Origin: Ruminococcus sp. YE71
GTDB taxonomy: Bacteria > Bacillota > Clostridia > Oscillospirales > Ruminococcaceae
Direction of reading: 5' to 3'
NCBI RefSeq assembly: GCF_900119155.1
Contig: NZ_FPIR01000022.1
Coordinates: forward strand, 1 to 57,704
DNA: 57,704 bases
A program made the position numbers and the translations under genes. Under the pieces are notes generated by a model. It saw nothing but the letters and a program-made list of their open reading frames with translations. It searched no databases and was not told the origin of the DNA. Below, piece after piece: positions 30,031-57,081 of the stretch (position 1 is its first letter; each line of letters starts with the position of its first letter).

Positions 30031-30058
30031 ATTATACACACATTGACAGAAATGTCAA
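30031..30058 (-). promoter_or_regulatory. Promoter of the surface protein/fucosidase operon
   Basis: Minus strand TTGACA (30058-30053), 16-bp spacer, TATAAT (30036-30031); leader about 70 bases. Confidence 0.8.
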
Positions 30059-30603: not shown

Positions 30604-30643
30604 GATTCCGCGAGTTTTCCCGTTTGGTGCGGGAATTAAAGAT

Positions 30644-30689
30644 AAAAAGACACGGTACAACGTCAGGCAACGTTGTACCGTGTCTTTTT
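30644..30689. terminator. Bidirectional terminator between the small gene and tRNA-fMet
   Basis: A 19-bp perfect stem (30644-30662 with 30671-30689) around an 8-base loop, with A5 on one side and T5 on the other, so it can stop transcription in both directions. Confidence 0.9.
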
Positions 30690-30691
30690 AT

Positions 30692-30768
<77 letters not shown>

Positions 30769-30815
30769 ATATTTTTTATCTCTCAGGAACCGTTGTGTTT
30801 CCCGATTGCTTTAAT

Positions 30816-30844
30816 ATTATATCACGAAATTTCAGGTCTGTCAA
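30816..30844 (-). promoter_or_regulatory. Promoter of the tRNA-fMet gene
   Basis: Minus strand TTGACA (30844-30839), 17-bp spacer, TATAAT (30821-30816): full consensus, as expected for a strongly transcribed tRNA. Confidence 0.9.
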
Positions 30845-30912
30845 TAGTATTTGCCCAAAAAAATTATATTTGTTAAAACCACATAAATTTTCCCGTGTTT
30901 AACAAAAAACTA

Positions 30913-30941
30913 TTGACAAAGCAGAGAAAAAGTAGTATAAT
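30913..30941 (+). promoter_or_regulatory. Promoter of the sodium-solute symporter gene
   Basis: TTGACA (30913-30918), 17-bp spacer, TATAAT (30936-30941): full consensus. The spacer begins AAGCAGAGA, as in the rhamnose operon promoter. Confidence 0.88.
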
Positions 30942-31010
30942 ATTTATTGCATTCTGCTTTAACGGCGTAAAGCGCAAAAAGCAAAAAGGATAAAAGTGAG
31001 GTATTGCATA

Positions 31011-32534
31011 ATGACAATGTGGATCGTTTTGGGTATGTACCTTATACTTATGATAGGTATAGGCGCATATTACCGAAAGAAAAACTCCGACACGTCTGAC
31101 TACGTGCTGGGCGGAAGGTCGCTCGGCTCATGGTTCACGGCGTTCGCTTACGGAACGAGCTACTTCTCGGCGGTAATTTTCGTCGGATACGCAGGCAAGT
31201 TCGGATGGAACTACGGCGTTTCGGCGACGTGGGTCGGCATCGGAAACGCCATCATCGGCTCGCTCATCGCGTGGCTGGTACTCGGCAAACGCACACGCTC
31301 GATGTCGAAATTCCTCGACGCAAGGACGATGCCCGAATTCTTCGAGAAGCGCTACAAAAGCACAGGGCTCAAACTCGCTTCGGCAGTGATAATCTTCATA
31401 TTCCTTATCCCCTACACCGCTTCGGCGTTCAACGGACTTTCGAGACTGTTCGAGAAGGCGTTCCACGTCAACTACGAAGTCTGCATCATCGTGATGGGCG
31501 TCATCACGGCGGCTTACGTTATCGTCGGCGGATACAAGGCTACGGCTCTCAATGACTTCATCCAGGGCATCGTGATGCTGATAGGAATATTCGCCTGCGT
31601 GCTGGTCATCCTCGACAACAACGGCGGTCTTGCCGCTTCGCTCAGAGCGCTCGGCTCTATCGAGTACAAGGGCGATAAGAACGTATACAACTCGCTGTTC
31701 GGACCCGACCCGATCAACCTGCTGGGCGTTGTTATACTTACCTCTCTCGGCACATGGGGTCTGCCCCAGATGGTCACCAAGTTCTACACCATCAAGAGCG
31801 AACAGGCTATCAAGCAGGGCACGGTCATCTCGACCATTTTCGCGTTCATCGTGGCTGGCGGATGCTACTTCCAGGGCGGTTTCGGCAGACTGTTCGTGAC
31901 CGTTCAGCCCGACGGCACTCCCACAGGCGGTTTCGACGGCATCGTTCCGACCATGATGGAATCCCTGCCCGAGATACTGTTCGGCGTGGTCATCGTGCTG
32001 GTCCTCTCGGCTTCGATGTCTACCCTCAGCTCGCTGGTACTGACTTCAAGCTCGACACTGACCCTTGATATGATAAAGCCCATGTCAAAAGGCAAGCTCG
32101 AAGGCAAGAAGGAAGTGCTCGTCATGAGAATGTTCGTGGCGGTGTTCCTTGCCATCTCGTGCGGTATCGCGATAGCGACTCTTGAGAACCCGACTACAGT
32201 TATATCGACGCTCATGTCCATCAGCTGGGGCGCTCTCGCAGGCGCGTTCATCGGACCGTTCATGTGGGGTCTTTACCTGAAAAAGGTGACTAAGGCGGCA
32301 GTCTGGACTTCGTTCATCTGCGGCGTAGGCATCACAGTGGGACATATGTTCTACTTCACCTTCGGACACCGCACCGCTTTTCTCGGCGGACTCGCGCTCC
32401 ACTCGCCTATCAACGCAGGCGCCTTCGCAATGCTGTTCAGCATCATGATCGTACCCGTAGTGAGCCTCTTCACCGCAAAACCCGACAAAAACGACGTCGA
32501 AGAGATCTTCACAGGTATGTCTACCATAAACTGA
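31011..32534 (+). CDS. Sodium:solute symporter family transporter (SSS)
   Basis: A 507-residue protein with about 13 membrane helices, standard length for the SSS family. SDTSDYVLGGRSLGSWFTAF near the N-terminus is the family pattern YxLGGR.L. VGGYKATALNDFIQGIVML is the helix after the GGxxAxxxTD.xQ region, and SSTLTLDM sits near the Na2 site region. Substrate cannot be told; proline, pantothenate and monocarboxylates are family options. The ATG at 31011 follows GTGAGG by nine bases; a GTG five codons earlier is the alternative. Single-gene transcript with a clear terminator. Confidence 0.87.
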   Translation: MTMWIVLGMYLILMIGIGAYYRKKNSDTSDYVLGGRSLGSWFTAFAYGTSYFSAVIFVGYAGKFGWNYGVSATWVGIGNAIIGSLIAWLVLGKRTRSMSKFLDARTMPEFFEKRYKSTGLKLASAVIIFIFLIPYTASAFNGLSRLFEKAFHVNYEVCIIVMGVITAAYVIVGGYKATALNDFIQGIVMLIGIFACVLVILDNNGGLAASLRALGSIEYKGDKNVYNSLFGPDPINLLGVVILTSLGTWGLPQMVTKFYTIKSEQAIKQGTVISTIFAFIVAGGCYFQGGFGRLFVTVQPDGTPTGGFDGIVPTMMESLPEILFGVVIVLVLSASMSTLSSLVLTSSSTLTLDMIKPMSKGKLEGKKEVLVMRMFVAVFLAISCGIAIATLENPTTVISTLMSISWGALAGAFIGPFMWGLYLKKVTKAAVWTSFICGVGITVGHMFYFTFGHRTAFLGGLALHSPINAGAFAMLFSIMIVPVVSLFTAKPDKNDVEEIFTGMSTIN

Positions 32535-32540
32535 CAACTC

Positions 32541-32577
32541 AGGACAGACTGCCCCGCGCAGTTTGTCCTGTTTTTTT
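32541..32577 (+). terminator. Terminator of the symporter gene
   Basis: AGGACAGACTGC pairs with GCAGTTTGTCCT (one G-U) around a five-base loop, followed by seven T residues. Confidence 0.9.
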
Positions 32578-32725
32578 GCCTGGGGAGAACCTTCCAAAGA
32601 CTTTTAATATGTCGTTTGTTAGATGTGGTCGGGAAGATAGGCTATCAACGCTTCAAGAGATACCGTCTTTGGGGCAGGTTGGATATGTAGGGCGCAGGCT
32701 TGCTCCCGCCGCTTTTTATGCACAC
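32578..32725 (+). repeat. Copy C of the dispersed intergenic repeat (truncated)
   Basis: It starts TGGGGAGAACCTTCC, continues AAAGACTTTTAATATG, GGTCGGGAAGATAGGCT and TTCAAGAGATACCGTCTT, as in copies A and B. The downstream part (GGCTTGCTCCCGCC ... TTTTGCAAAC) is shared with the region next to copy E. It follows the symporter terminator directly. Confidence 0.6.
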
Positions 32726-32804
32726 TCATTTTTTGCAAACGCTTGCCCATGCCCGAATCGCAGAATTAAGCGTGACCCGCCCCCCCATAAGCGCAGGAGA
32801 CTTC

Positions 32805-32833
32805 TTGACATCGTGGGTGAGTGGTGATATAAT
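32805..32833 (+). promoter_or_regulatory. Promoter of the large secreted repeat protein
   Basis: TTGACA (32805-32810), 17-bp spacer, TATAAT (32828-32833); leader about 45 bases. Confidence 0.85.
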
Positions 32834-32881
32834 ATAGGCAGCGCAGCAGTGCGTTAAATTATATTATAGGGGGTAATTTTA

Positions 32882-35662
32882 TTGGCAAGGACAAAGAGAA
32901 GTCTGCTGAGCATATTCATGTGCGCACTGACGGTGTTCATCATCTGTGCGGTGCAGCCCGTGAAGGCTTCGGCGGAGACAAATCCGAAGGCTGCGGACAA
33001 CAGCAGCGTGTGGCTCATCAAGAACTCGTTTCTTGAAGCTATGGACGACGGCGGATACATGAGGGTCTTTTACGCGGATCATAAGGTTTACGTCGAGTAC
33101 TACAGTCCGTCCTTCAAGCTGATGAGCAGAGATACCATCGAAATGGAACTGCCGATGTGGGGCGGTTTCTTCAAGGGCAGCGATGCCTACTATCTCTGTG
33201 AGGGTCAGGAAAACACCGACGAGAAGGACGATGCCGAAGTCATCAGGGTCATCAAGTACGACTTTGGCTGGAACAGGCTCGGTGCGGCTTCGATAACGGG
33301 CAACAAAGATCAGATATGGGGTTCTGATGTGCGTTATCCTTTCGACTACGGCTGCGTCGAGATGACCGAGTACAACGGCAAGCTGTTCATCACAACAGGG
33401 CATGAGGGGTATGTTGACCCCAACTACAATCAGGGGCATCAGGGCTACATGCTCATGATGGTGGACACCGACAGCATGACGGGCAAGATAATCGACGCCG
33501 ACCTGTGGCACTCCTTCGCCCAGTACATCAAAAACGACGGCACGGGGCTGTACATCTATCAGCAGAGCGAGGGTTCGCGCTGCACGACTCTCGACCGTTT
33601 CGACCTCGAAACGCTCATAAAGTGCGTCGAGAACGGCAAGATAAGCTACTTCTACAACAGCGAGATCTCCGACACCGAACAGGTATTCAAATACGGCGGC
33701 GTACAAACTTCCGCATGGGCTATCCCCTGCTACGCGACCGTCAACGACATGGCGCTGTCGGCGGACAACGTGCTGGGTATCGGCACCTCAATCGACCAGT
33801 CGAAGTACGAATCCTATGACAGCAACAGCACGCCTTACAACATCTACCTTACCGTCACCCCGAAAAACGAGGTGGGCAAGGGCAAGACTTCCGTAAAGTG
33901 GCTGACTTCCTACAGCAGCGGCGCAAAGCAGTTCACGGGCGTGTTCCTCACGAAGATAAGCGACGACCGTTTCCTCGTGACATGGGGCGAAAAGAACACC
34001 TCCAAGACCCCTGCCGACGTCAATGACCCGCTCTCGGGGAACGTTCTGCACTATCTGTTCATTGACGGCAGCGGCAACAAGCTCAGCAGCGAATATACCG
34101 CCCGTGCGTCGATCTCCGATTGCAGACCGACCGTCAGCGGCGGAAAGGCTGTGTTCTACACATCGAACGGCTCGTCTCTCGATTTCTACGGCATCGACGT
34201 GAACAGCGGCGCTTCCTCGAAGAAGGTCTACCGCATCGCAGGCGACAGCGCGACGTGGGAGTGCAAGGACGGTGTGCTGACCATCTCGGGCACGGGCAGC
34301 CTTTATGCCTGCGACACCGAGAATGTCTACTGGAGCGGCACCCTGTTCAGCCCGCTCGCGGATGTGGTGACAAAAGTTGTGGTAAAGTCTGGCATCACCG
34401 ACATCCCCGCATACGAATTCGCTTACCTGACCGAGCTCAAGACCGTTGTTATCGAGCCTGGGGTAAAGACCATCGGCAAGCGCGCGTTCTCGAATATACA
34501 TGACCTCGAAAGGGTCTACATCCCGAAGAGCGTGACCTCGATAGGCGAGGACATCGTCTGGACAGGCTGGTACTGGACAGGCAGCGGCGACCACGTTTAC
34601 AGCGCGGCCATCTGCACGAACTACGGTTCGGCGGCTTATAAGTACGCCGAAAAGTACAGCATAAAGTACCTGCTCGACCTGGCAGACGCGGAGATAAGCG
34701 GCATCAGTTCGAGCTACAGTGCAACGGGTTCGGCTATCGTTCCGAACATCACTGTAAAGCTCGGCGGAAAGACCCTCACGAAGGGCACGGACTACACCGT
34801 CACCTGCAAGAACAACGTGAACGCAGGCACGGCGACACTCACGATAACGGGTACGGAAAACTACAAGGGTTACTTCGGCACCAGGTCGGCGAACTTCAAC
34901 ATCAGGAATCCGCAGAAGAGCATATCGAAGTGTACCGTGACTCTCTCGGGCACCAGCTTTGAATACACGGGCAGCCCGATAAAGCCTGCCGTTACCGTCA
35001 AGGACGGCACCAAAACGCTGAAGGAGAACACCGATTACAGCGTCAGCTACGTCAACAACGTGAACGCAGGCACGGCTTACGTTTACATCGGCGGAAAAGG
35101 CGACTACAATGACGTTGTTTCAAAGAGCTTCACCATCACTCCGCCCACCGACATCGCAAAGGCAGAGATAACCCATCCGAAGTCGGTCTATTGGTACGAG
35201 GGCAAGGCGGTCGAGCCCGAACCCATTGTCAAGCTCGGCGGAAAGACCCTCACGAAGGGTACAGACTACACCGTCACCTACCGAAACAACAGCACCACAG
35301 GCAAGGCGTACTTCGCGGTCAAGGGCATCGGGAACTACACGGGCAGACAGGTGGTCTACTACAAGATAGCTCCCGGAGTACAGACCATCACCGACCTGAG
35401 ATCCTTCACGGCACAGAAGATCGTCATCACATGGAAGAAGGACAAGAGGGCTACGGGCTATCAGTTCCAGATCTCCGCAGACCCGACCTTCAAGACGGGC
35501 GTGACCACCCACGTCGCACAGACCAGCGACACCATCTCCCGTCAGTGCATAAAGCTCAAATCGGGTACGACCTACTATTTCAGACTGCGTGCGTACAAGA
35601 TGATCGACGGGGCAAGATGCTACGGTCCCTACACCGAAGTACAGTCCTGCACGGCTAAATAA
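32882..35662 (+). CDS. Large secreted protein: propeller-like domain, LRR_5, three Ig-like repeats and FN3
   Basis: A 926-residue exported protein. Residues 1-31 are a signal peptide ending in VKASAE. Residues about 35-440 look like a beta-propeller (recurring acidic-aromatic strands, no known motif). Residues about 498-560 hold a BspA-type leucine-rich repeat (LTELKTVVIEPGVKTIGKRA). Three units of about 78 residues follow, each with GxxDYxVxxxNNxxxGxA (about 604-833); an FN3-like domain with ITWKKDKRATGYQFQIS ends the chain. A TTG start at 32882 is used, with TAGGGGG eight bases upstream. No anchor motif, so probably secreted or cell-wall associated. It stands alone between its promoter and terminator. 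Confidence 0.85.
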   Translation: MARTKRSLLSIFMCALTVFIICAVQPVKASAETNPKAADNSSVWLIKNSFLEAMDDGGYMRVFYADHKVYVEYYSPSFKLMSRDTIEMELPMWGGFFKGSDAYYLCEGQENTDEKDDAEVIRVIKYDFGWNRLGAASITGNKDQIWGSDVRYPFDYGCVEMTEYNGKLFITTGHEGYVDPNYNQGHQGYMLMMVDTDSMTGKIIDADLWHSFAQYIKNDGTGLYIYQQSEGSRCTTLDRFDLETLIKCVENGKISYFYNSEISDTEQVFKYGGVQTSAWAIPCYATVNDMALSADNVLGIGTSIDQSKYESYDSNSTPYNIYLTVTPKNEVGKGKTSVKWLTSYSSGAKQFTGVFLTKISDDRFLVTWGEKNTSKTPADVNDPLSGNVLHYLFIDGSGNKLSSEYTARASISDCRPTVSGGKAVFYTSNGSSLDFYGIDVNSGASSKKVYRIAGDSATWECKDGVLTISGTGSLYACDTENVYWSGTLFSPLADVVTKVVVKSGITDIPAYEFAYLTELKTVVIEPGVKTIGKRAFSNIHDLERVYIPKSVTSIGEDIVWTGWYWTGSGDHVYSAAICTNYGSAAYKYAEKYSIKYLLDLADAEISGISSSYSATGSAIVPNITVKLGGKTLTKGTDYTVTCKNNVNAGTATLTITGTENYKGYFGTRSANFNIRNPQKSISKCTVTLSGTSFEYTGSPIKPAVTVKDGTKTLKENTDYSVSYVNNVNAGTAYVYIGGKGDYNDVVSKSFTITPPTDIAKAEITHPKSVYWYEGKAVEPEPIVKLGGKTLTKGTDYTVTYRNNSTTGKAYFAVKGIGNYTGRQVVYYKIAPGVQTITDLRSFTAQKIVITWKKDKRATGYQFQISADPTFKTGVTTHVAQTSDTISRQCIKLKSGTTYYFRLRAYKMIDGARCYGPYTEVQSCTAK

Positions 35663-35676
35663 TACGCTTGTTTTCA

Positions 35677-35709
35677 GAGCCTGCTCACCCCGAGCAGGCT
35701 CGTTTTTTC
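35677..35709 (+). terminator. Terminator of the large secreted protein
   Basis: GAGCCTGCTC pairs with GAGCAGGCTC around five bases, then G and six T residues. Confidence 0.9.
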
Positions 35710-35779
35710 GCATACGGATGCATAACGCCCGAAAATGCGGAAAATATGCGGTTTTGACAAAAAAAATCTCGGAAAAACC

Positions 35780-35808
35780 TTGCAATTAGTGAAAAAAAGT
35801 GATATAAT
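35780..35808 (+). promoter_or_regulatory. Distal promoter P1 of the arginine cluster
   Basis: TTGCAA (35780-35785), 17-bp spacer, TATAAT (35803-35808). A TGCAG-ATAT-TTGCA element (35816-35829) lies at the expected start site; it fits the spacing of an ARG box (two half-sites, 4-base centre) but not its usual TGAAT half-site. Confidence 0.6.
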
Positions 35809-35856
35809 TGAAGTATGCAGATATTTGCAGGAGACCCATTATACGGTTTCTGCACC

Positions 35857-35872
35857 GAATATGCGCATATTC
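35857..35872. promoter_or_regulatory. Perfect 16-bp palindrome in the argG leader
   Basis: GAATATGCGCATATTC is its own reverse complement. It lies between the two argG promoters, among several TGCA repeats (35816-35925). An arginine repressor (ArgR) site is a reasonable guess from position. Confidence 0.5.
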
Positions 35873-35936
35873 CAGGTGATTATGCAGGTTTTGCACGGAA
35901 TTTTTGCATATTTTATTAAATTTTGTGCAAAAAGGG

Positions 35937-35964
35937 TTGACAAACCGAAAAAACGGTGTATAAT
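35937..35964 (+). promoter_or_regulatory. Proximal promoter P2 of the arginine cluster
   Basis: TTGACA (35937-35942), 16-bp spacer, TATAAT (35959-35964), about 58 bases before the argG start codon. Confidence 0.82.
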
Positions 35965-36022
35965 AGTTTATATAAACGCATTATCTGCAAAACTTATTAC
36001 TTGTTTACTGGAGGAATCACCA

Positions 36023-37249
36023 ATGGCTAAGGAGATCAAAAAGGTTGTTTTGGCATATTCGGGCGGACTTGATACATCTATCATCATTCCGTGGCTCAAG
36101 GAGAATTACAATAACTGCGAAGTAATCGCTGTTTCGGGCGACGTAGGACAGGGCACCGAGCTCGACGGTCTTGAGGAAAAGGCTATCAAGACAGGCGCTT
36201 CCAAGCTCTACATCGAGGACCTCAAGAAGGAGTTCATCGAGGAGTACGTTTATCCTACCGTTCAGGCAGGCGCTGTTTACGAGAACAGATACCTGCTCGG
36301 CACTTCCTTCGCTCGTCCGATCATCGCTAAGAGGATCGCCGAGATCGCTATCGCTGAGGGCGCTGACGCTATCTGCCACGGCTGCACAGGCAAGGGCAAC
36401 GACCAGGTAAGATTCGAGCTCGCTATCAAGAGATACGCTCCCGATATGGAGATCATCGCTCCCTGGAGGATCTGGGATCTCAAGAGCCGTGAGCAGGAGA
36501 TCGAGTACGCTGAGGCTCACAACATTCCTCTGAAGATAAACAGAGAGACCAACTACTCGAAGGATAAGAACCTGTGGCACCTCTCGCACGAGGGTCTCGA
36601 CCTTGAGGATCCCGCAAACGAGCCGCAGTACGAGAAGCCGGGCTTCCTTGAGCTGGGCGTTTCCCCGATCCAGGCTCCCGACAAGCCCACTTACGTTACC
36701 ATCCACTTCGAGAAGGGTATCCCCACTTCCGTTGACGGCGTTGAGCTGGACGGTCCCGCACTCGTAGCTAAGCTCAACGAGCTGGGCGGCGCTAACGGCA
36801 TCGGTCTCGCAGACCTCGTAGAGAACAGACTCGTAGGCATGAAGAGCCGCGGCGTTTATGAGACTCCCGGCGGAACTATCCTCTATCACGCTCACGACGT
36901 TCTTGAGACCATCACCCTCGACAAGGAGACCGCACGCATCAAGCAGTACCTCTCCATCAAGTTCGCAGACGTTGTTTACAACGGTCAGTGGTACACTCCC
37001 CTCCGTGAGGCTATGAGCGCATTTGTTACCGAGACCCAGAAGACTGTTACCGGCGACGTTAAGCTCAAGCTCTACAAGGGCAACATCATCAACGCAGGCG
37101 TTACTTCGCCGTACACTCTGTACGATGAAGAGGTAGCGACCTTCGACGAGGATAACGTATACAACCAGGCAGATTCCGCAGGATTCATCAATCTGTTCGG
37201 TCTGCCGATAAAGGTAAGAGCCAAGCTCGAACAGAAGCGCGGCAACTGA
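36023..37249 (+). CDS. argG: Argininosuccinate synthase
   Basis: A 408-residue enzyme joining citrulline and aspartate with ATP, the seventh step of arginine synthesis. The N-terminus [20 protein letters not shown] holds the P-loop [22 protein letters not shown] is the citrulline/aspartate site. The ATG at 36023 has GGAGG seven bases upstream; the frame is open far upstream, but that part has promoter sequence in it. Codon use is strongly biased, as for a highly expressed gene. It is the first gene of the arginine cluster, behind two promoters. Confidence 0.97.
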
Positions 37250-48038: not shown

Positions 48039-48054
48039 GTGATAACGTTATAAA
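48039..48054. promoter_or_regulatory. LacI-type operator-like site, distal
   Basis: GTGATAACGTTATAAA shares the 10-bp palindromic core ATAACGTTAT and the left arm GTG with the perfect site at 49335-49350. It lies between argF and its terminator, about 125 bases before the regulator's own promoter. Confidence 0.5.
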
Positions 48055-48192: not shown

Positions 48193-48252
48193 CATCAAAG
48201 TAAAACATAGTATTCATGTATGAAATATAGATTCAATATGAGAGGTGATATC

Positions 48253-49326
48253 ATGTCGCTGAAACAGATCGCAAAAATGACAGGTGTATCGGTATCCACA
48301 GTCGGCAGGATACTCAGTGACCCGAATCATAAATGCTCGAATGAAGAGGTTAGACAGAGGGTCCTCGAAGCGGCAAGGGAGATAAGCTACATCCCCAACG
48401 CCAGCGCACGCTCGCTGAGGGCGGGCGGCAAGACCGACGACAGGATCTTCCACATCAACATCCTGCTGACAAGGTTCGCGAAGGAAGCTGCCGACCCCTT
48501 CTACGACGAGCTGCTGATGATACTCGAAAAAGAACTGCGTAACAGCGGATGTATCGTCGGGAACGTGTGGCACTGCGCCGAATTCTCGGACGAGAAATAC
48601 AACCAGACCGACAAGCTGCAAAAGCTGACTGACAGTCTCTACTCGGACAGTGAGAGACGCTCGGACGGACTTATCATTATCGGGAAGGTCACGGGCAGGG
48701 CGCTCAAACAGCTCAAAACAAGGGAAAAGAACATCGTGTCCATCAACCGCAACTCGACCAACTACGAGGTGGATGAGGTGCTTTGCGACGGCGGCAGGAT
48801 AGCACAGAACGCTGTGGCGCACCTTGCAAAGCTCGGACACACGAAGATAGGCTACGTCGGCGACTGTCACAACGAATCGCGTTTCACGGGATATCAGGCG
48901 GCGCTGGCGACCCAGCATCTTGCTCCCGATATCGACTACATCTACGACACAACGCCGAATGAGGCCAACGGTATCGCCGCGATGGAGTACTTCAGTTCGC
49001 TGGCAGACCCGCCTACAGGCATCTACTGTGCGAACGATATCTTGGCGGTCGGTATGATAAAGGCTATGGGCAAGCGAAGGGCGCGAGGATATATCCCCTC
49101 GATAATCTCCAGCGATGATATCGATGCCGCCCAGTATACCAAGCCGATGCTGACAACGATCGCACTGCCGAAAAATGAGATGGTAAAGTTCGCTCTGATG
49201 CTGCTTCTTGACCGCATAAAGGGCGGTCACAAGATAGTTTCGCGGCTTGAAGTCGAGGGAACGCTCATTATTCGTGAAAGCTGCCGCACCTTCAGGGAGC
49301 TTACAGAACCCGAATACTACATCTGA
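48253..49326 (+). CDS. LacI/GalR-family transcriptional regulator
   Basis: A 357-residue regulator. Residues 1-58 form the DNA-binding domain (LKQIAKMTGVSVSTVGRILS, then EVRQRVLEAAREISYIPNASA, including the hinge helix). Residues 60-357 form a periplasmic-binding-like effector domain (KLGHTKIGYVGDCHNESRF, IYCANDILAVGMIKAMGK). The ATG at 48253 follows AGAGGTGAT. The perfect palindrome GTGATAACGTTATCAC sits just before the next promoter and a partial one before its own, so it probably controls the downstream operon. LacI proteins usually sense sugars; here the target genes concern sulfur and metal cofactors, so the effector is open. Confidence 0.9.
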   Translation: MSLKQIAKMTGVSVSTVGRILSDPNHKCSNEEVRQRVLEAAREISYIPNASARSLRAGGKTDDRIFHINILLTRFAKEAADPFYDELLMILEKELRNSGCIVGNVWHCAEFSDEKYNQTDKLQKLTDSLYSDSERRSDGLIIIGKVTGRALKQLKTREKNIVSINRNSTNYEVDEVLCDGGRIAQNAVAHLAKLGHTKIGYVGDCHNESRFTGYQAALATQHLAPDIDYIYDTTPNEANGIAAMEYFSSLADPPTGIYCANDILAVGMIKAMGKRRARGYIPSIISSDDIDAAQYTKPMLTTIALPKNEMVKFALMLLLDRIKGGHKIVSRLEVEGTLIIRESCRTFRELTEPEYYI

Positions 49327-49334: not shown

Positions 49335-49350
49335 GTGATAACGTTATCAC
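49335..49350. promoter_or_regulatory. LacI-type operator upstream of the nitrogenase-like operon
   Basis: GTGATAACGTTATCAC is a perfect 16-bp palindrome of the LacI-family type (central CG). It lies 10 bases upstream of the -35 hexamer, a position compatible with repression or with activation. It begins eight bases after the LacI gene's stop codon. Confidence 0.8.
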
Positions 49351-49359: not shown

Positions 49360-49388
49360 TTGACAAACCGACGGATATGAGTTACAAT
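49360..49388 (+). promoter_or_regulatory. Promoter of the nitrogenase-like/trans-sulfuration operon
   Basis: TTGACA (49360-49365), 17-bp spacer, TACAAT (49383-49388), leader about 50 bases. Confidence 0.8.
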
Positions 49389-49446: not shown

Positions 49447-50604
49447 ATGAGTTATAAAAATATTGAAACAGCCCTCATACACGGCGGTATATCCATTGAC
49501 GAGCGCACAGGTGCGGTGAACGTCCCGATATATCAGACCTCGACCTTCAAGCAGGACGGTCTCGGAAAGATGAGGGGCTATGAGTATTCGAGAACGGGCA
49601 ACCCCACAAGAGAAGCTCTCGAAGCACTCATCGCAGAACTTGAAGGCGGCTACGCAGGCTTCGCTTTCGCAAGCGGACTTGCGGCAGAGACCGCAGTGCT
49701 GAGCCTGCTGAACTCGGGAGACAGAGTGCTTATCTCCTCAAACGTTTACGGCGGCACATTCAGACTGCTCGACAAGATATTCAACCACTTCAATATCAAC
49801 TACACCATCTCGGACACCGAGAACATCGAGTCCTTTGAAAAGGATATCACTCCCGATGTCAAGGCGGTACTTATCGAGAGCCCCGCAAATCCGCTGATGA
49901 CCATTACCGACATCAGAGCGGTGGCGGAAACGGCTCACAAGCACGGACTGCTCGTGATCGTGGACAACACCTTCATGACACCGTACATCCAGAGACCGCT
50001 TGAACTGGGTGCAGACATCGTGGTACACTCGGCTACCAAGTATCTCGGCGGACACAGCGACGTCGTTGCAGGTCTCGCGGTGGTAAAGACGAAGGAACTT
50101 GCAGAGCGCATCGCTTTCATCCAGAACTCGACAGGCGGCGTTCTTCCTCCGTTCGACAGCTTCCTGCTGATACGCGGCATCAAGACGCTGGGCGTTCGTC
50201 TCGACAGACACGTTGCAAACGCCGAAGCCGCTGCGAAATACCTCAGCACACACAGCGCGGTCAAGAGCGTTCACTACCCGGGACTTCCGACCGACAAGGG
50301 CTACGAGGTCAACAAGCGTCAGGCTAAGAACGGCGGCGTGATGATCTCCTTCGAGCTCAAGGACAACTACGATATTAACGTGTTCTTCGAGAGCTTGCAG
50401 CTGGTGACGCTGGCTGAGAGCCTTGGCGGTGTTGAATCGCTCGTATGCCATCCTTCGAGCATGACCCACGCTTCCATCCCCGAAGATATCCGCCGCAAGG
50501 TAGGTATCACCGACGGGCTGATAAGACTTTCGATCGGTATCGAGAGCATAGACGATATTCTCGCCGATATTGAACAGGCGATCGAGAAAAGCGAGGTAAA
50601 ATAA
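49447..50604 (+). CDS. mccB: Trans-sulfuration PLP enzyme (cystathionine gamma-lyase/synthase family)
   Basis: A 385-residue Cys/Met-metabolism PLP enzyme. YEYSRTGNPTREALEALIAEL is the phosphate-binding segment contributed to the partner subunit, ASGLAAETAVLSLLNSGDRV the other phosphate site, IVDNTFMTPY the PLP-ring aspartate (D173), and HSATKYLGGHSDVVAG the Schiff-base lysine (K198). The length fits cystathionine gamma-lyase/synthase rather than the longer O-acetylhomoserine sulfhydrylases. The ATG at 49447 has AAAGGAAG eight bases upstream; three earlier in-frame ATGs are worse placed. Together with the next gene it forms a reverse trans-sulfuration pair as in Bacillus mccAB. The direction of the reaction (methionine to cysteine, or thiol capture to methionine) cannot be told by sequence. 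Confidence 0.82.
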   Translation: MSYKNIETALIHGGISIDERTGAVNVPIYQTSTFKQDGLGKMRGYEYSRTGNPTREALEALIAELEGGYAGFAFASGLAAETAVLSLLNSGDRVLISSNVYGGTFRLLDKIFNHFNINYTISDTENIESFEKDITPDVKAVLIESPANPLMTITDIRAVAETAHKHGLLVIVDNTFMTPYIQRPLELGADIVVHSATKYLGGHSDVVAGLAVVKTKELAERIAFIQNSTGGVLPPFDSFLLIRGIKTLGVRLDRHVANAEAAAKYLSTHSAVKSVHYPGLPTDKGYEVNKRQAKNGGVMISFELKDNYDINVFFESLQLVTLAESLGGVESLVCHPSSMTHASIPEDIRRKVGITDGLIRLSIGIESIDDILADIEQAIEKSEVK

Positions 50605-50605
50605 A

Positions 50606-51514
50606 ATGCTGTATGAAAATATGCACGGGCTCATCGGGCACACCCCGCTCGTGAGACTGAAAAATATGGGGGTCTCCCCCAACGTCAATATCTACGCAAA
50701 GCTGGAAATGTATAACCCCTCGGGAAGCGTCAAAGACCGCATCGGTGAGTATATGGTCAAGGCAGCCGAGAAAGAGGGCAAACTTAAAAAGGGCGGTACG
50801 ATAATCGAGGCTACCGCAGGAAACACGGGACTGGGAATAGCGTTCGCAGCACTCGGAAGAGGCTACAGGGTGATATTCACAGTGCCCACAAAATTCTCCG
50901 CAGAAAAGCAGGCTCTTATGAGAGCGCTCGGTGCGGAGGTCATAAACACTCCGCGTGCCGAGGGTATGCTCGGGGCTGTACGCAAGGCTGAAGAGCTGAA
51001 AGCGACGATACCCGATTCCATATCCCTCGAACAGTTCAAGAACCCGAACAATCCGCTCGCTCACTACGAAGGAACGGGCAGAGAGATATGGAAGGACATC
51101 GGCGGCAAGGTGACACATCTGGTCGCAGGCGCAGGCAGCGGCGGAACCTACTCGGGCATCGTGAGATACTTGAAGGAACACGACCCGAAGGTTCAGGGCG
51201 TGCTTGCCGATCCCGAGGGCTCGACCATCGGCGGAGGAGAACATTTCGACTACAACATTGAGGGCATCGGCAACGACTTCATTCCCGATACTATGGACAT
51301 CACACTTGTGGATAAGGTCATCAAGATAAACGATGAGGAAGCATTCTCCACAGTGCGCGACCTCGCGAAGAACGAGGGCATCATCGCGGGTTCATCTTCG
51401 GGCGCTGCTATGGCGGCGGCAATAAAGCTCGCACGTACCCTCGAAAGCGGAAATATCGTGGTGGTCCTCCCCGACAGAGGAGACAGATATTTCAGCACTG
51501 GACTTTTTGGGTAA
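50606..51514 (+). CDS. mccA: O-acetylserine-type cystathionine beta-synthase/cysteine synthase
   Basis: A 302-residue PLP enzyme of fold type II. NPSGSVKDRIGEYM holds the Schiff-base lysine (K43), IIEATAGNTGLGIAFA the substrate loop, and GAGSGGTYSGIVRYLKE the phosphate loop. The later segment YNIEGIGNDFIPDTMD and SNDEEAF-like INDEEAFSTVRDLA resemble cystathionine beta-synthases more than CysK, hence the MccA call. It starts one base after the mccB-like stop, so the two are translationally coupled. The pair would make cysteine from homocysteine. Confidence 0.82.
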   Translation: MLYENMHGLIGHTPLVRLKNMGVSPNVNIYAKLEMYNPSGSVKDRIGEYMVKAAEKEGKLKKGGTIIEATAGNTGLGIAFAALGRGYRVIFTVPTKFSAEKQALMRALGAEVINTPRAEGMLGAVRKAEELKATIPDSISLEQFKNPNNPLAHYEGTGREIWKDIGGKVTHLVAGAGSGGTYSGIVRYLKEHDPKVQGVLADPEGSTIGGGEHFDYNIEGIGNDFIPDTMDITLVDKVIKINDEEAFSTVRDLAKNEGIIAGSSSGAAMAAAIKLARTLESGNIVVVLPDRGDRYFSTGLFG

Positions 51515-51524
51515 CGGTGATATA

Positions 51525-51896
51525 ATGATCTACAAGATTGCACTTGCAAGCTCTGACGGAGCAAGCATCGACAGTCATTTCGGAGCGGCCGAGCGGTTCT
51601 ACATCGCAGAGCTCGACACCGAGACCGAGGACTGTGAGATAACGGGCTTCCGCGATGTCAACAGGGCGTGTCACGGCGGCTATCATGAGATCGACGCTTT
51701 TGCGGCGATACTTGATACGCTCTCTGACGTGTCGGCGATAGTTGCACAGCGCGTTGGTCCCGGAGCGCGGAAATACATCTCGGAACACGGCATAGCTGTG
51801 TATCAGATAGCGCTCGGCACCGAGCAGGCGATATGTCTGCTCATAGAAGAAAAACAATGGGAGGTGGATAAATGGCTATCTCATACGAAGAACTGA
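51525..51896 (+). CDS. NifX/NafY-type iron-molybdenum cofactor-binding protein
   Basis: A 123-residue single domain of the dinitrogenase FeMo-cofactor biosynthesis family. IYKIALASSDGASIDSHFGA is the family start with its histidine in SHFG, and IVAQRVGPGARKYISEHGIA is the second half. Such proteins carry NifB cofactor or other FeS clusters between enzymes. The ATG at 51525 was chosen behind GGTGATA. It overlaps the NifB-like start by 25 bases, which supports a link with cofactor assembly. A second protein of this family (56708-57040) ends the operon. Confidence 0.85.
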   Translation: MIYKIALASSDGASIDSHFGAAERFYIAELDTETEDCEITGFRDVNRACHGGYHEIDAFAAILDTLSDVSAIVAQRVGPGARKYISEHGIAVYQIALGTEQAICLLIEEKQWEVDKWLSHTKN

Positions 51897-52753
51897 CAAC
51901 TAAACACCCCTGCTTTGCCAGAGGCGAGAAGAACGGCAGCGGACGAATCCATCTTCCGATAAGTCCGAGCTGCAATATAGAATGCCGCTTCTGCGAGCGC
52001 AGTTTCAACAACTACGAGGTGCGTCCGGGCGTCAGCAGAACGGTCATCACCCCCGAGGAAGCGATAGATGCTATCCGCAGGGCTCTGGAAGTCTGTCCCG
52101 AGATACACGTTGCGGGCATAGCGGGTCCCGGCGACACGCTGGCAAGCCCCTACGCGCTGGAGACGTTCCGACTGATAAAGAAAGAGTTCCCCGACCTTGT
52201 CAAGTGCATGAGTACGAACGGTCTGCTGCTTGCCGAGAAGGCACAGGAGATCATAGACGTCGGCGTCGATTCGCTGACGGTCACGGTAAACGCCGTTGAC
52301 CCGAAGATAGAGGCGCAGCTCAATGACGGCATCGTTTGGCACGGAAAACACTACACGGGCATCGAAGCCGCAAAGATACTCATCGAGCAGCAGCTCAAAG
52401 GCATAAGGCTCGTGAGCGAGGCAGGCGTTACACTCAAAGTCAACACGGTGTTCGTTCCCGAGATAAACGGCGACCACATCGAGGAAGTTGCGAGAACGGT
52501 CGCAGAGGCAGGTGCTTCGATATACAACATCATCCCTCTGATACCGAATCACAAGCTGAAGGACTGCCGCGAACCAGACTGCATGGAGCTGGAAAGGGTG
52601 ATACTCAAGGCTTCAAAGTACATCGACGTGTTCAGACACTGTCAGAGATGCCGCGCCGACGCGGTGGGTATCCCCGGCGGCAAGGACTACGGCGAGCAGA
52701 TCTACATCGACCTGCAAAGACTTTCGAGAAAAGATACATTCTCACACGGATGA
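51872..52753 (+). CDS. NifB-like radical SAM cofactor synthase
   Basis: A 293-residue radical SAM enzyme. The cluster motif is C34-x3-C38-x2-C41 in CNIECRFCER, followed by NYEVRPGV, which keeps the ExRP motif of NifB. HPCFARGE near the start and HCQRCRADAVGIPGG near the C-terminus are also NifB signatures. NifB builds the 8Fe-9S-carbide precursor from two 4Fe-4S clusters and SAM. It lacks the fused NifX domain of many NifB proteins, but a separate NifX-like protein overlaps its start. Order B-H-D-K is that of the mar operon. Confidence 0.92.
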   Translation: MAISYEELTTKHPCFARGEKNGSGRIHLPISPSCNIECRFCERSFNNYEVRPGVSRTVITPEEAIDAIRRALEVCPEIHVAGIAGPGDTLASPYALETFRLIKKEFPDLVKCMSTNGLLLAEKAQEIIDVGVDSLTVTVNAVDPKIEAQLNDGIVWHGKHYTGIEAAKILIEQQLKGIRLVSEAGVTLKVNTVFVPEINGDHIEEVARTVAEAGASIYNIIPLIPNHKLKDCREPDCMELERVILKASKYIDVFRHCQRCRADAVGIPGGKDYGEQIYIDLQRLSRKDTFSHG

Positions 52754-52785
52754 TCAAAATTTTTTTAATACATGAAATGAGGTAA

Positions 52786-53649
<864 letters not shown>

Positions 53650-53650
53650 G

Positions 53651-53727
53651 ATAAGAAATCAGAAATAAGAAATAATAAATATAATTCCTGCTTTCTGATC
53701 TCTGCTATCTGATTTCTGATTTCTTAT
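53651..53727 (+). repeat. Long inverted repeat between the NifH- and NifD-like genes
   Basis: A 16-bp perfect pair (ATAAGAAATCAGAAAT at 53651-53666 with its complement at 53712-53727) in a low-complexity A/T-rich stretch of the GAAATCAGAAAT type. The hairpin could protect or process the NifH-like mRNA so that it is made in excess over the D and K parts. A weaker relative lies at 55219-55314. Confidence 0.6.
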
Positions 53728-53751
53728 TTCTTTAATAAAGAGGAGTTTATT

Positions 53752-55218
53752 ATGAGTAAAGTAAATTTGGATATTCCTGAGGTCGAGATACGTGAGATAC
53801 GTCTCGGTTCGATCACGGGCTTTCAGGGCACGGCTAAGGAGCTTGTCAGTGCCTGCTCGGGCTGCGGAAAGCTGAAAGACAAGAACCGCTCCTTCAGCCA
53901 GTGCTTAGGCTGCGGTACTTCCAACGCTGCCTGCACACTGACGCTGATACAGGATGCGGCGATCATCTCCCACGGTCCTGTAGGATGTTCTACCTGCCTG
54001 CATGAGTTCGCTTTCACCTACCGCGTGAACGCTTATCTCAGACAGCTCGAACACCCCACCCAGAGAAAGATCTTCTCCACAAACCTTGAAGAAAAGGACA
54101 CCATCTACGGCGGCGGCAAGAAGCTCGACGCTGCTATCCACGAGGTCTACAAGCGTGCTAAGCCGAAGGCGATATTCGTTATCACCACCTGCGCGGCAGG
54201 TATCATCGGCGACGACGTTGAGAGCGTTACCAACAACGCCGAGAAGGAGCTGGGTATACCCGTTGTTGCGGTATTCTGCGAAGGCTTCCGCTCGAAGATG
54301 TGGACATCGGGCTTCGATGCAGGCTATCACGGCATCGCAAGAAAGATCATCAAGCCCGCAAGACAGAAGAGAAACATCATCAATGTCATCAACTTCTGGG
54401 GCAGCGATATTTTCAGAGAGTGGTTCGCGGAGTTCGGCTACGAGCCCAACTACATCACTCCCTTCGCGACTGTTGACAGCCTGAGCTATTCGAGCGAGGC
54501 GGCACTGACCATTCAGGCTTGCTCGACACTCGGAAGCTATCTCGGCGCGGCACTGGAGCAGTCCTTCGGCGTGCCCGAGATCCGCAATTCGCCCCCTTAC
54601 GGCATCGCACAGACCGACCGCTGGTTCAGAGAGCTCGGTCAGATCATCGGCAAGGAGAAGGAAGTCGAGGAGTTCCTCGCACGCAAGAAGGAAGAATACC
54701 TGCCGAAGATAGAGGCTCTGCGTGAGAAGCTCAAGGGCAAGACCGCTTACGTTACCGCAGGCGCTTCCCACGGACACTCGCTGCTGGCTCTGCTCAAGGA
54801 GCTCGGCATGGAGCCGCAGGGTGCTGCGATATTCCACCACGACCCCGAATACGATAACGAGGACGAGCGTGCCGATACATTAAGACACACCGTTGAGGAT
54901 TACGGCGATGTTCCCAACTACAACGTCTGCAACAAGCAGGAGTTTGAGCTGGTGAACGTGCTCAACCGCATCAAGCCCGACATCCTGCTTGCACGTCACG
55001 GCGGCATGACCCTGTGGGGCGCTAAGCTCGGAATCCCCTCGCTGCTTATCGGCGACGAGCATTTCGGAATGGGCTACGAAGGCTTAGTAAACTACGGCGA
55101 GCGCATCCTTGAGACCATCGAGAACGATGAGTTCGTAAAGAATCTGGCTCAGCATTCGTCCAACCCCTACACAAAGTGGTGGCTTGAACAGGAGCCCTAC
55201 ACCTTCCTCGGAAAATAA
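53752..55218 (+). CDS. NifD-like alpha subunit of a nitrogenase-like reductase
   Basis: A 488-residue nitrogenase component 1 alpha-type subunit. P-cluster ligand positions are kept: C61, C79 (HGPVGCSTC) and C147 (ITTCAAGIIGDDVESV). Both residues that hold the active-site cofactor in NifD have counterparts: C257 in IQACSTLGSYLG and H437 in GDEHFGMGYEG. An N-terminal extra CSGC (C35, C38) and CLGC (C51, C54) precede the first ligand. No NifE, NifN or NifV is present, so it is not classical nitrogenase; context with sulfur amino-acid enzymes points to a methylthio-alkane reductase-like (MarD) role. Substrate is inference. Confidence 0.88.
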   Translation: MSKVNLDIPEVEIREIRLGSITGFQGTAKELVSACSGCGKLKDKNRSFSQCLGCGTSNAACTLTLIQDAAIISHGPVGCSTCLHEFAFTYRVNAYLRQLEHPTQRKIFSTNLEEKDTIYGGGKKLDAAIHEVYKRAKPKAIFVITTCAAGIIGDDVESVTNNAEKELGIPVVAVFCEGFRSKMWTSGFDAGYHGIARKIIKPARQKRNIINVINFWGSDIFREWFAEFGYEPNYITPFATVDSLSYSSEAALTIQACSTLGSYLGAALEQSFGVPEIRNSPPYGIAQTDRWFRELGQIIGKEKEVEEFLARKKEEYLPKIEALREKLKGKTAYVTAGASHGHSLLALLKELGMEPQGAAIFHHDPEYDNEDERADTLRHTVEDYGDVPNYNVCNKQEFELVNVLNRIKPDILLARHGGMTLWGAKLGIPSLLIGDEHFGMGYEGLVNYGERILETIENDEFVKNLAQHSSNPYTKWWLEQEPYTFLGK

Positions 55219-55314
55219 CTTTTTAAATAGGATATAAGAAATAAAAAATAAGAAATATACTTTGATCTCTTGTTTCTCATCTTTTATCTGTTAAATAATA
55301 AGGAGAAAATACTT
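55219..55314 (+). other. Low-complexity gap between the D-like and K-like genes
   Basis: AAGAAATAAAAAATAAGAAAT and, after some bases, TGATCTCTTGTTTCTCATC form a weak inverted repeat like that at 53651-53727. AAGGAG then serves the K-like gene. Confidence 0.5.
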
Positions 55315-56655
55315 ATGGCAGGATTAATTGAACAGGAACGCTACACCTGCGCGATAGGCGCTTTACAGACGGTAGTAGCTATCCCCCGCGCCGTGCCGAT
55401 ACTTCATTCGGGTCCGGGCTGCGGAGTAATGATAAAGGGCTTCTTCGAGCGTTCGTCGGGCTATGCAGGCGGCGAGACCGCACCCTGCACCAATTTCAGC
55501 GAGAAGGAAGTTGTTTTCGGCGGCACCGACAGACTGCGCAACATCATCAAAAACACCTACAAGGTGCTTGACACCGACTTGCAGGTCGTAGTTACGGGCT
55601 GTACAGCAGGCATCGTGGGTGACGACATTGCAAGCGTTACCGATGAGTTCCTCTATGAAGAGGACAGACCCATCGTTCACGTTGAGACCTCGGGCTTCAA
55701 GTCGAACAACTATGTTTCCCACTCGGCTGTTGTCAACGCTATCATAGACCAGTATGTCAGCCGTTTCGAGGACGACAACCCCGCACGCAGCGAGAAGAAC
55801 CTCGTAAACGTCATCGCATCCATCCCCTATCAGGATCAGTTCTGGAAGGGCAACCTCAAAGAATACAAGAGACTTCTTGAAGGTCTCGGACTCAAGGTAA
55901 ACATCCTCTTCGGACCCCATTCGGGCGGCGTAAAGGAATGGCAGACCATCCCGAAGGCTAACTTCAACGTGTTCGTTTCCCCCTGGTACGGCGAGCCCAT
56001 CGTCAAGAATCTGGAGAGACGCTACGGTCAGCCCTACTTCAAGTTCGGCTATCTGCCCATCGGCGCCAACGAGACCACACGCTTCCTGAACGGCGTTGTT
56101 GATTTCGCTCTCGAACAGGGCGCCGAGATCGACGAAAAGAAGGCAAGAAAGTTCATCGAGGAAGAGGAGAAGGCTTACTACGAAGAGCTCGACAACCTCG
56201 CGACCTTCCTGCTGGAGTTCCGCTACGGACTTCCCTCCTACGTACATATCCTGCACGACTCGGGCTATGTTGTGGGTCTGACAAGATTCCTGCTTCACGA
56301 GACAGGCGTCGTTCCGAAGGAACAGTTCATCGTGGACAACGTTCCGAAGAAGTATCAGGAACAGATCGAGGCAGACATCAAGGCTACCTCCGACAAGCGT
56401 GAGATACCCGTTTACTTCGACCCCGACGCAGGCGCTATGCAGGACGTTATCAGAGGTCTCGAACACAAGGGCAGAGGTCTTATCCTCGGCAGCGGCTGGG
56501 ATAAGGAACTCGCCGCAGAGATCAATGCGGACTTCCTCTCCATCGCTTGTCCGACTCCTTACCGTATCGTGCTGACCACAAATTACGTCGGCTACACGGG
56601 CGGACTCAGGGTCATCGAGGATATCTACAACACGGCACTCGCAACATATAAATAA
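55315..56655 (+). CDS. NifK-like beta subunit of a nitrogenase-like reductase
   Basis: A 446-residue component 1 beta-type subunit. P-cluster ligand positions are C12 in YTCAIGALQTV, C36 in HSGPGCGV and C96 in VTGCTAGIVGDD. The chain is shorter than NifK (about 520) and lacks the long N-terminal extension, as in Mar, Anf and other nitrogenase-like K subunits. Start at 55315 behind AAGGAG; the frame is open 15 codons further upstream through a T-rich region. It would pair with the D-like subunit to form the alpha2beta2 catalytic unit. Confidence 0.88.
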   Translation: MAGLIEQERYTCAIGALQTVVAIPRAVPILHSGPGCGVMIKGFFERSSGYAGGETAPCTNFSEKEVVFGGTDRLRNIIKNTYKVLDTDLQVVVTGCTAGIVGDDIASVTDEFLYEEDRPIVHVETSGFKSNNYVSHSAVVNAIIDQYVSRFEDDNPARSEKNLVNVIASIPYQDQFWKGNLKEYKRLLEGLGLKVNILFGPHSGGVKEWQTIPKANFNVFVSPWYGEPIVKNLERRYGQPYFKFGYLPIGANETTRFLNGVVDFALEQGAEIDEKKARKFIEEEEKAYYEELDNLATFLLEFRYGLPSYVHILHDSGYVVGLTRFLLHETGVVPKEQFIVDNVPKKYQEQIEADIKATSDKREIPVYFDPDAGAMQDVIRGLEHKGRGLILGSGWDKELAAEINADFLSIACPTPYRIVLTTNYVGYTGGLRVIEDIYNTALATYK

Positions 56656-56707
56656 TGACCAAAGAGCTGTCGCACGTCCGACAGCTCTTTTTGAAAGGAA
56701 TGATACT

Positions 56708-57040
56708 ATGGCTAAAGTTGCTATTGCAACAGGCGACGGCTTTACCGTTAACGAACATTTCGGTCACGCAAAATTCTTCCGCGTGTACGAACTTACCGAT
56801 ACCGACTTTAAGTTTCTCGAAGTCCGCGACGCTGTGGCGGTCTGCCAGCAAAGCCTCGGTCACGATACCACTCGCTTCGATAAGATAATCGAACTTCTAT
56901 CCGACTGTGACGCTCTCCTCGTCCAGAAGATCGGCGAGGGCGCGGCTGCATACCTCATAGCCAAAAACGTCCGCGTATTCGAGGTCAGCGGCCCCATCGA
57001 CGCAGTACTCCAAAAGTTCATAGCAGACAAAATAATCTGA
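56708..57040 (+). CDS. NifX-type cofactor-binding protein, second copy
   Basis: A 110-residue FeMo-cofactor biosynthesis family domain. KVAIATGDGFTVNEHFGHAK has the family N-terminus with a His pair, and LLVQKIGEGAAAYLIAKNVR the second half. It has an internal cysteine (C66 region, SDCDALL). Last gene of the operon, 52 bases after the K-like gene, behind GAAAGGAAT. It differs clearly from the first copy at 51525, so the two may hold different clusters or act at different steps. Confidence 0.85.
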   Translation: MAKVAIATGDGFTVNEHFGHAKFFRVYELTDTDFKFLEVRDAVAVCQQSLGHDTTRFDKIIELLSDCDALLVQKIGEGAAAYLIAKNVRVFEVSGPIDAVLQKFIADKII

Positions 57041-57081
57041 AAAAAGCAAAGCCCGAGACGCGTTTCGGGCTTTGCTTTTTT
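57041..57081 (+). terminator. Terminator of the nitrogenase-like operon
   Basis: A 16-bp perfect stem (AAAAAGCAAAGCCCGA with TCGGGCTTTGCTTTTT) around an 8-base loop, ending in T residues. Confidence 0.92.

Follow-up and report, generated by a model that had tools for sequence, protein, structure and literature searches.

A group IV-A nitrogenase-like operon of a Ruminococcus albus-like rumen bacterium as a candidate sulfur-scavenging reductase

Gene content and layout of the locus

The window analysed here, i.e. the whole 57,704-nucleotide stretch from Ruminococcus sp. YE71, is contig C30 of a 4.07-Mb genome (completeness 99.96%) and carries a nitrogenase-like operon with a group IV-A D/K pair, which is considered here as a probable sulfur-scavenging reductase. 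In a genome scan, the closest D proteins were those of rumen Ruminococcus metagenome-assembled genomes (MAGs; at most 98% identity) and of Ruminococcus albus strains (95%); the host is a Ruminococcus albus-like rumen bacterium. Sequence and domain scans place eight genes on the + strand at 49447-57040 as one transcription unit, with a promoter upstream and a hairpin terminator at its end, which bears out the gene order, the strand, the single strong promoter and the single strong terminator described in an earlier note on this DNA. Among these eight genes, the domain scans found no NifE or NifN gene. The features of the locus are the following.

48040-48053, no strand: second copy of the palindrome described below, with 1 mismatch and without the 10-bp geometry, located in the interval from the argF-like gene to the promoter of the regulator
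48220-49326, + strand: LacI-family transcriptional regulator (PF00356, PF13377), candidate regulator of the operon
49336-49349, no strand: perfect palindrome TGATAACGTTATCA, candidate LacI-type operator, its end exactly 10 bp before the -35
49360-49388, + strand: sigma-70-type promoter TTGACA-N17-TACAAT (11/12 consensus matches)
49447-50604, + strand: MccB-like cystathionine gamma-lyase / homocysteine desulfhydrase, a pyridoxal phosphate (PLP) enzyme (Cys_Met_Meta_PP, 506 bits)
50606-51514, + strand: CysK/CBS-like PLP enzyme, cysteine synthase- or cystathionine beta-synthase-like, CysK or MccA (PALP; TIGR01136 over its cut-off)
51525-51896, + strand: NifX-like small protein, first copy (PF02579)
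51872-52753, + strand: NifB-type radical S-adenosylmethionine (SAM) maturase (TIGR01290 at 270.7 bits, below the cut-off of 343.65)
52792-53649, + strand: canonical NifH-type Fe protein, the reductase (TIGR01287 at 457.6 bits, above its cut-off)
53648-53730, + strand: long inverted repeat / hairpin in the H-D gap (z -2.86)
53752-55218, + strand: D subunit, group IV-A (Nfa clade), with a Mar-type [Fe8S9C] site (by PF00148, tree, ligands and fold)
55315-56655, + strand: K subunit, P-cluster cysteines kept (PF00148; start at the ATG following an AAGGAG site)
56661-56690, no strand: hairpin in the gap between K and the last nifX (z -4.35)
56708-57040, + strand: NifX-like small protein, last copy (PF02579)
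57040-57081, no strand: terminator hairpin (z -7.35)

The MccB-like enzyme reaches 552.9 bits with PRK07671, under the cut-off of 594, and its top PDB chain is 7d7o. The NifB-type protein, which is without a NifX domain, matches solved NifB at 9.4e-81 and displays the motifs HPCF, CxxxCxxC and CxxCRADA. Given the hairpin that precedes it, the last nifX may be partly uncoupled from the rest of the operon. The D-K gap is A/T-rich like the H-D gap, yet it folds no better than shuffled sequence.

Relatives, clade and active site of D and K

Compared with solved structures, the window D has R. rubrum MarD, of the methylthio-alkane reductase (Mar) of Rhodospirillum rubrum, as its best match (1.2e-132, with the top nitrogenase chain at 7.1e-40) and the window K has R. 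rubrum MarK (4.9e-114, with the top nitrogenase chain at 6.6e-18). An AlphaFold2 model of D, built on a 27-sequence alignment of the window and related loci (mean predicted local distance difference test score 81), matches chain A of 9FMG with template modelling (TM) scores of 0.90/0.94, versus 0.61-0.76 for the nitrogenase chains among the 50 matches listed. Sequence, metal ligands and, for D, the predicted fold all resemble those of MarDK, in line with the Mar-like system suggested in the earlier note; D and K are nonetheless not MarDK.

The clade statements made here come from a maximum likelihood tree of 65 D-type rows (61 distinct), with the F430, chlorophyll and Isr proteins left out; the phylogeny covers D only and no K tree stands behind it. 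The clade that contains the window D is group IV-A (41 rows, of which 37 are distinct; support 100/99). Its other members include Heliophilum NflDK1 (L147/L103, recognised from its contig, its gene order and the nifH- and nifB-like genes beside it), two Elusimicrobiota rows (L080 from an Endomicrobium MAG, L084 from an Elusimicrobiota MAG) and the D that this genome carries on contig C15; the sequence of Endomicrobium proavitum itself is absent from the tree. The Nif/Anf D rows (n=6) form a separate clade (100/100): by NCBIfam four are NifD or NifE and one is AnfD, all over equivalog cut-offs, and the Endomicrobium NifD, at 645.5 bits, is slightly below the equivalog cut-off and above the subfamily cut-off. 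The MarD clade (5 rows, 100/100) consists of R. rubrum, Heliophilum NflDK5, Pectinatus, Clostridium guangxiense and R. albus 8; its Firmicute members are 57-81% identical to R. rubrum MarD, versus 41% for the window D. Hence the phylogeny that the earlier note had called for places D with neither Mar nor Nif/Anf, but in IV-A. Within its own order the IV-A system is patchy, since a census of that order at E <= 1e-150 gave 2 positive genomes among 297, one of them this genome.

Residues are numbered as in R. rubrum MarD, after PMC12552129. All IV-A D rows retain Cys66, Cys91, Cys158, Cys270, Trp195, Phe199, His375, Arg428 and His429, and in the C15 D the only difference sits at a neighbouring place (Phe374 to Tyr). 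The residues of the window D that correspond to the MarD [Fe8S9C] ligands Cys270 and His429 are Cys257 and His416. The six P-cluster cysteines (positions 66, 91 and 158 of D, and 32, 56 and 121 of K) are all found in the window, and those of K are kept in 41 of the 42 K rows, including that of the window, L074 being gapped at two positions. Furthermore, the Arg428-His429 pair, which PMC12552129 proposes as a possible Mar hallmark against nitrogenases, is present in 41/41 IV-A rows (37 distinct); the supposed Mar-hallmark site thus occurs in a clade called nitrogenase.

All five Mar rows have His at position 194, compared with Val, Ile, Met or Leu in 41/41 IV-A rows (Met in the window D); none of the other 19 of the 65 rows has His there either. 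In Mar, this position and its neighbours sit 3.9-4.7 Å from the S2B sulfur (PMC12552129). A hydrophobic residue in place of His194 suggests that the IV-A substrate differs from that of Mar.

These data bear directly on the possibility that the operon encodes a plain methylthio-alkane reductase acting on the R. rubrum substrates dimethyl sulfide, ethyl methyl sulfide and 2-methylthioethanol. Indeed, the Mar proteins are the best solved relatives, the B-H-D-K order and the cluster ligands are alike, and the MccB/MccA-like pair would suit the entry of methanethiol sulfur into methionine. However, the D clade is separate from that of MarDK, which is found beside IV-A pairs in the genomes of Heliophilum, Pectinatus, C. 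guangxiense and R. albus 8, and the His194 near S2B is hydrophobic in every IV-A row. Plain Mar membership is rejected on the D clade and the missing His194, and we regard this explanation as improbable. Of the Mar-like C-S system put forward in the earlier note, sulfur assimilation is supported by the gene neighbours and the shared operator (see below), while membership in Mar did not hold on account of the clade, the 41% identity and the absence of His194.

A minimal nitrogenase, in which IV-A Nfa with NifB and NifH would fix N2 without NifEN (a claim made for E. proavitum), draws support from the 100/99 clade that the window D shares with Heliophilum NflDK1, predicted to be diazotrophic in PMC9147875. 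The active site argues otherwise: at NifD Gln191 and His195 every IV-A row carries Trp and Phe, the position of the conserved NifD glycine corresponds to Arg-His in all of them, and PMC12552129 reports no N2 reduction by R. rubrum Mar, which shares the IV-A ligands.

Gene neighbours, reductase and operator

The relatives' loci comprise 80 retained from the 165 found by the genome scan and two plasmid loci (82 in all); a D reading frame was present in 78 (L077, L081, L091 and L101 were dropped), and 36 were left after dereplication at 88%. In 26 of these 36, a cystathionine-lyase-, CysK- or O-acetylhomoserine sulfhydrylase (OAHS)-like gene lies in the stretch around D. Such a sulfur amino-acid gene is seen in 18 of the 19 loci of at least 16 kb and, within the same-strand run of D, in 21/35 (L024 left out), compared with 0/4 nif/anf control loci, which were the loci at hand and not a random draw, and 0/20 control stretches of 18-20 kb from the own genome (contigs C34, C25 and C28). 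Conversely, no PII gene was found at E <= 1e-4 in the 36 IV-A loci, against 4/4 nif/anf loci. A transporter scan of one member per cluster gave NlpA/MetQ-type transporters in 10 of the 36 loci, Ssu-type binding proteins in 9 and either in 17. Heliophilum NflDK1 is flanked by OAHS- and CysK-like genes. Nitrogenase-like clusters on plasmids of Chlorohelix allophototropha and Treponema saccharophilum (L023 and L024) each contain two D/K pairs, with OAHS or CysK genes nearby.

The window NifH matches C. pasteurianum NifH (1cp2) at 5e-139 versus 1.6e-82 for MarH. In the NifH tree, which has long branches and weak resolution within the 20 rows concerned and from which R. rubrum MarH was left out, it belongs to a 20-row clade (100/97) with NifH from the nif clusters of Acetobacterium, Pectinatus and C. 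guangxiense, and a second lineage (10 rows, 99/95) holds the NifH of IV-A loci from Heliophilum, Chlorohelix, Synergistaceae, Coriobacteriales and one C. guangxiense. A NifH-like gene is present in 22 of the 36 loci, 14 being at least 75% identical to the window NifH and 8 at most 56%. At the C. guangxiense Mar locus (L154:100-4283), the adjoining NifH falls in the canonical clade (TIGR01287, 458.8 bits). Hence the reductase type cannot separate Mar from IV-A and was dropped as a test of Mar membership, so that the differing reductase lineage weighs little against plain Mar; equally, a canonical NifH is no proof of nitrogenase. This locus is another sign suggesting that the Fe protein has been exchanged between families.

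A search of the whole genome with PF00148 gave 10 matches over the cut-off. The six proteins of the C30, C15 and C25 pairs are all below the NCBIfam NifD/E/K/N cut-offs; the verdict on NifE and NifN covers these three pairs, the four distant C34 proteins lying outside the NCBIfam scan (two of them were Pfam-scanned). For NifV, no match above the cut-off was found in the whole genome. Within this scope, neither the Nif clustering nor the nifE, nifN or nifV genes elsewhere in the genome that the earlier note had named as counter-evidence came to light. On C15, the second IV-A D/K is followed by a peptide-type ATP-binding cassette (ABC) transporter and an OAHS-like enzyme, and consecutive genes on C25 (L010:7660-13033) encode CysK, K, D, NifX and a binding protein of the SsuA family. 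The C25 D retains Cys66/91/158/270 and the His, whereas the Arg of the Mar pair is absent. Because this D and its neighbour in the tree both sit on long branches, its placement is uncertain; the pair may represent a third substrate class, close to Heliophilum NflDK2/4. Neither the NCBIfam scores nor, for D, the tree support the idea that the C15 or C25 pair acts as NifEN. The single canonical NifH of the genome is on C30, as is the only NifB-like gene among the D/K loci read (the other 24 genomic radical SAM matches are unclassified), and one NifB and one NifH probably serve all three D/K pairs.

On C34 (L011:6235-13574), a HydE gene precedes distant homologues of NifH, D and K arranged in two sets, with two NifH-like and four D/K-like genes in total; Dos Santos 2012 describes NifHEN-like sets beside hydrogenase maturation genes. 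In the window itself, two proteins without a Pfam match (3011-4273 and 4270-5229, both on the - strand) lie inside a polysaccharide-synthesis cluster with a flippase, EpsG, glycosyltransferases and a pyruvyl transferase, and a PF00148 match below threshold (3.1e-4) overlaps the first of them. A tandem of PII genes on C28 (L176:6792-12788) was considered as NifI1/I2 and rejected, its neighbours being ABC transporter, amidase-like and carboxylase-like genes (labels from open reading frame (ORF) reading); this neighbourhood perhaps serves the uptake of urea or a related nitrogen source.

For the minimal nitrogenase, the canonical NifH counts in favour. Against it stand the results on NifE, NifN and NifV, the sulfur genes that take the place of PII genes at the 36 IV-A loci, and rumen N2 fixation, described as negligible in PMC6776011. 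We consider a minimal nitrogenase very improbable. The Endomicrobium MAG (genome G012) has a NifD/K pair (L164) besides its IV-A pair (L080), and an N2-fixing phenotype in the genus therefore need not stem from IV-A.

The palindrome TGATAACGTTATCA with at most one mismatch has 2 matches in the window versus 0.01 expected. Among Ruminococcus-type loci, a gene with a LacI-type N-terminal motif (judged by the motif only) precedes the operon in 25 of the 29 that show the first gene, and the 10-bp operator geometry occurs in 25 of the 28 with a readable upstream region. Scanning ~0.92 Mb of the own genome, chosen partly for sulfur genes, gave 16 distinct sites at up to 2 mismatches versus a mean of 2.85 and a maximum of 9 in 20 Markov simulations. 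Exactly 10 bp and then TTGAC follow 6/16 of these sites, and this spacing was never seen in the scan at sites with 3 or 4 mismatches. Besides the promoter of the C30 operon, this geometry is seen at the C15 D/K operon, at the gene for an OAHS-like protein on C20 (TIGR01326 at 444.7 bits, cut-off 495.1) and at a C16 operon (27624-36952) that combines a CysK-like gene with genes for siroheme synthesis and sulfite reductase. The C16 operon encodes an AraC-type regulator, the CysK-like PALP protein, GlutR, tetrapyrrole methylase/HemD and, as its last gene, NIR_SIR, to which ORF reading adds HemB, HemC and HemL. On C42 (L196:768-3305), two operator copies are found before Fe-containing alcohol dehydrogenase-like and class I aminotransferase genes. 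The shape of the palindrome is also that of LacI/CcpA (cre) sites in general, so the LacI-family protein is only a candidate binder of the operator. The operator position would suit an activator, and the upstream LacI-family regulator probably activates the operon and other sulfur genes, its identity and the sign of its action both being what we infer.

The same context bears on an isethionate reductase (IsrBHDK) or another sulfonate reductase yielding sulfite. Ssu-type binding proteins at 9/36 loci, the sulfite reductase operon on C16 with the same operator and the nitrogenase-like D/K on which Isr is likewise built all speak for it. However, PMC11423573 describes an IsrD with a single P-cluster Cys and no Cys275 ligand, and an IsrB whose closest relative is BciD, whereas the window D keeps all those Cys and the window B is NifB-like. 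Identity with Isr, compared by its description in that paper, is rejected on ligands and maturase. That rejection applies to Isr proper; the sulfonate alternative as a whole, with other sulfonate reductases included, appears very unlikely.

Proposed function and comparison with known systems

We consider it likely that the operon encodes an anaerobic sulfur-scavenging reductase of group IV-A, which would be ATP-driven, use a NifB cofactor and break C-S bonds for sulfur assimilation. Gene content, clade, ligand residues, neighbours and operator geometry are observed; a role in C-S reduction is supported by gene context and active site, and we infer the C-S cleavage itself, the substrate class and the cofactor identity. 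NifB would assemble the [Fe8S9C] cluster and the NifX proteins would carry or hold it, before it is bound through Cys257 and His416 of D in a D/K heterotetramer whose six cysteines would hold the P-cluster. With electrons supplied by the canonical NifH at the expense of ATP, a C-S bond in a small organic sulfur compound, probably other than the R. rubrum Mar substrates, would be broken reductively. The freed thiol, sulfite or sulfide would then enter methionine and cysteine via O-acetylhomoserine sulfhydrylase, CysK and the MccB/MccA-like pair. The same NifB and NifH would probably serve the two further D/K pairs, which adjoin uptake proteins of their own, and the LacI-family regulator would probably activate from the site just before the -35, jointly with other sulfur genes.

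Several observations weigh against this sulfur-scavenging function. Ten of the 36 loci are without a sulfur enzyme (L083, L084, L085, L086, L088, L092, L095, L098, L099 and L100); nine of them measure at most 15.1 kb, with L086 and L100 under 5 kb, and L099, with 21.5 kb, speaks against universality. The 10-bp geometry also occurs on C42, before the Fe-alcohol dehydrogenase and aminotransferase genes, and before a protein of 201 amino acids without a Pfam match on C20, both with no clear sulfur role. As its partner, the D/K pair has a canonical NifH, the type found in nitrogenase. The host has a sulfate assimilation route, i.e. a CysD-type PAPS_reduct match and a NIR_SIR protein, with sulfate transporter, Apr and CysN-like ORFs assigned by ORF reading, which rules out sulfur auxotrophy and means that the host does not depend on organic sulfur. 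Finally, the reported 15N2 claim for E. proavitum contradicts a sulfur function if it is right and the enzyme is orthologous.

A wider view, which we put forward tentatively and hold to be possible rather than probable, is that IV-A 'Nfa' is a non-nitrogenase third class of nitrogenase-like sulfur reductase, with the Mar-type [Fe8S9C] site, a substrate unlike those of Mar and Isr, a canonical NifH in gut Firmicutes and one NifB for several D/K that differ in substrate range. A LacI-family activator, acting from the fixed position 10 bp ahead of the -35, would control them within a sulfur regulon that also takes in CysK, sulfite reductase and O-acetylhomoserine sulfhydrylase. If so, many 'nitrogenase-positive' rumen and gut genomes would be those of sulfur scavengers. 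In PMC6776011, 23% of 501 rumen genomes are nitrogenase-positive by NifH while N2 fixation is called negligible, and NifH-based surveys would score the present operon as nitrogenase, given its canonical NifH paired with a non-nitrogenase D/K. Reported IV-A nitrogenases and gut nifH surveys may therefore need re-testing. The operon would represent an organic-sulfur route in rumen and gut, perhaps releasing methanethiol or small hydrocarbons, together with a candidate LacI-type sulfur regulon.

The sulfur context is not wholly new, as Dos Santos 2012 had already noted Cys275-bearing nitrogenase-like genes that adjoin genes for OAHS or cysteine synthase. What is new beyond this 2012 link is the clade, ligand, NifH and operator evidence. 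A literature search, which covered mostly open papers, found no paper linking the IV-A clade to sulfur against the nitrogenase label, although the Dos Santos 2012 examples may include IV-A.

Compared with the Mo/V/Fe nitrogenases, the operon shares a canonical NifH, NifB and NifX, but its D lies outside the Nif/Anf clade (100/100) with different active-site residues, no PII gene is nearby, NifEN was not found in the three scanned D/K pairs and NifV gave nothing over the cut-off. IsrBHDK of Rhodobacter capsulatus has in common with it nitrogenase-like H/D/K proteins in sulfur assimilation and a proposed C-S cleavage; unlike the window D, IsrD is described in PMC11423573 as minus two P-cluster Cys and the cluster Cys, and IsrB is BciD-like. 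MarBHDK of R. rubrum (9FMG, 9D9U) shares the B-H-D-K order, the P-cluster Cys, a NifB-type maturase and, in D, Cys270, the Arg428-His429 site, Trp195, Phe199 and His375. It differs in that the window D belongs to another clade, with 41% identity and Met for His194, and in that the operon encodes a canonical NifH rather than a MarH, together with two NifX-like proteins and the MccB/MccA-like pair.

The closest system is group IV-A Nfa itself (Heliophilum fasciatum NflDK1 and the Elusimicrobiota MAGs), which has the D clade (100/99) and ligand set of the window. The nearest published relative is claimed as a nitrogenase, a point missing from the earlier note: Heliophilum NflDK1 clades with E. 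proavitum NfaDK and is predicted to support diazotrophy (PMC9147875), and both E. proavitum and Heliophilum, which the literature puts in the same group, are listed as exceptions to the nifHDKENB rule. Heliophilum NflDK1 differs from the window in its reductase lineage and its literature label of nitrogenase; since it shares D clade, metal site and sulfur neighbours with the operon, the claim of N2 fixation by IV-A is directly testable.

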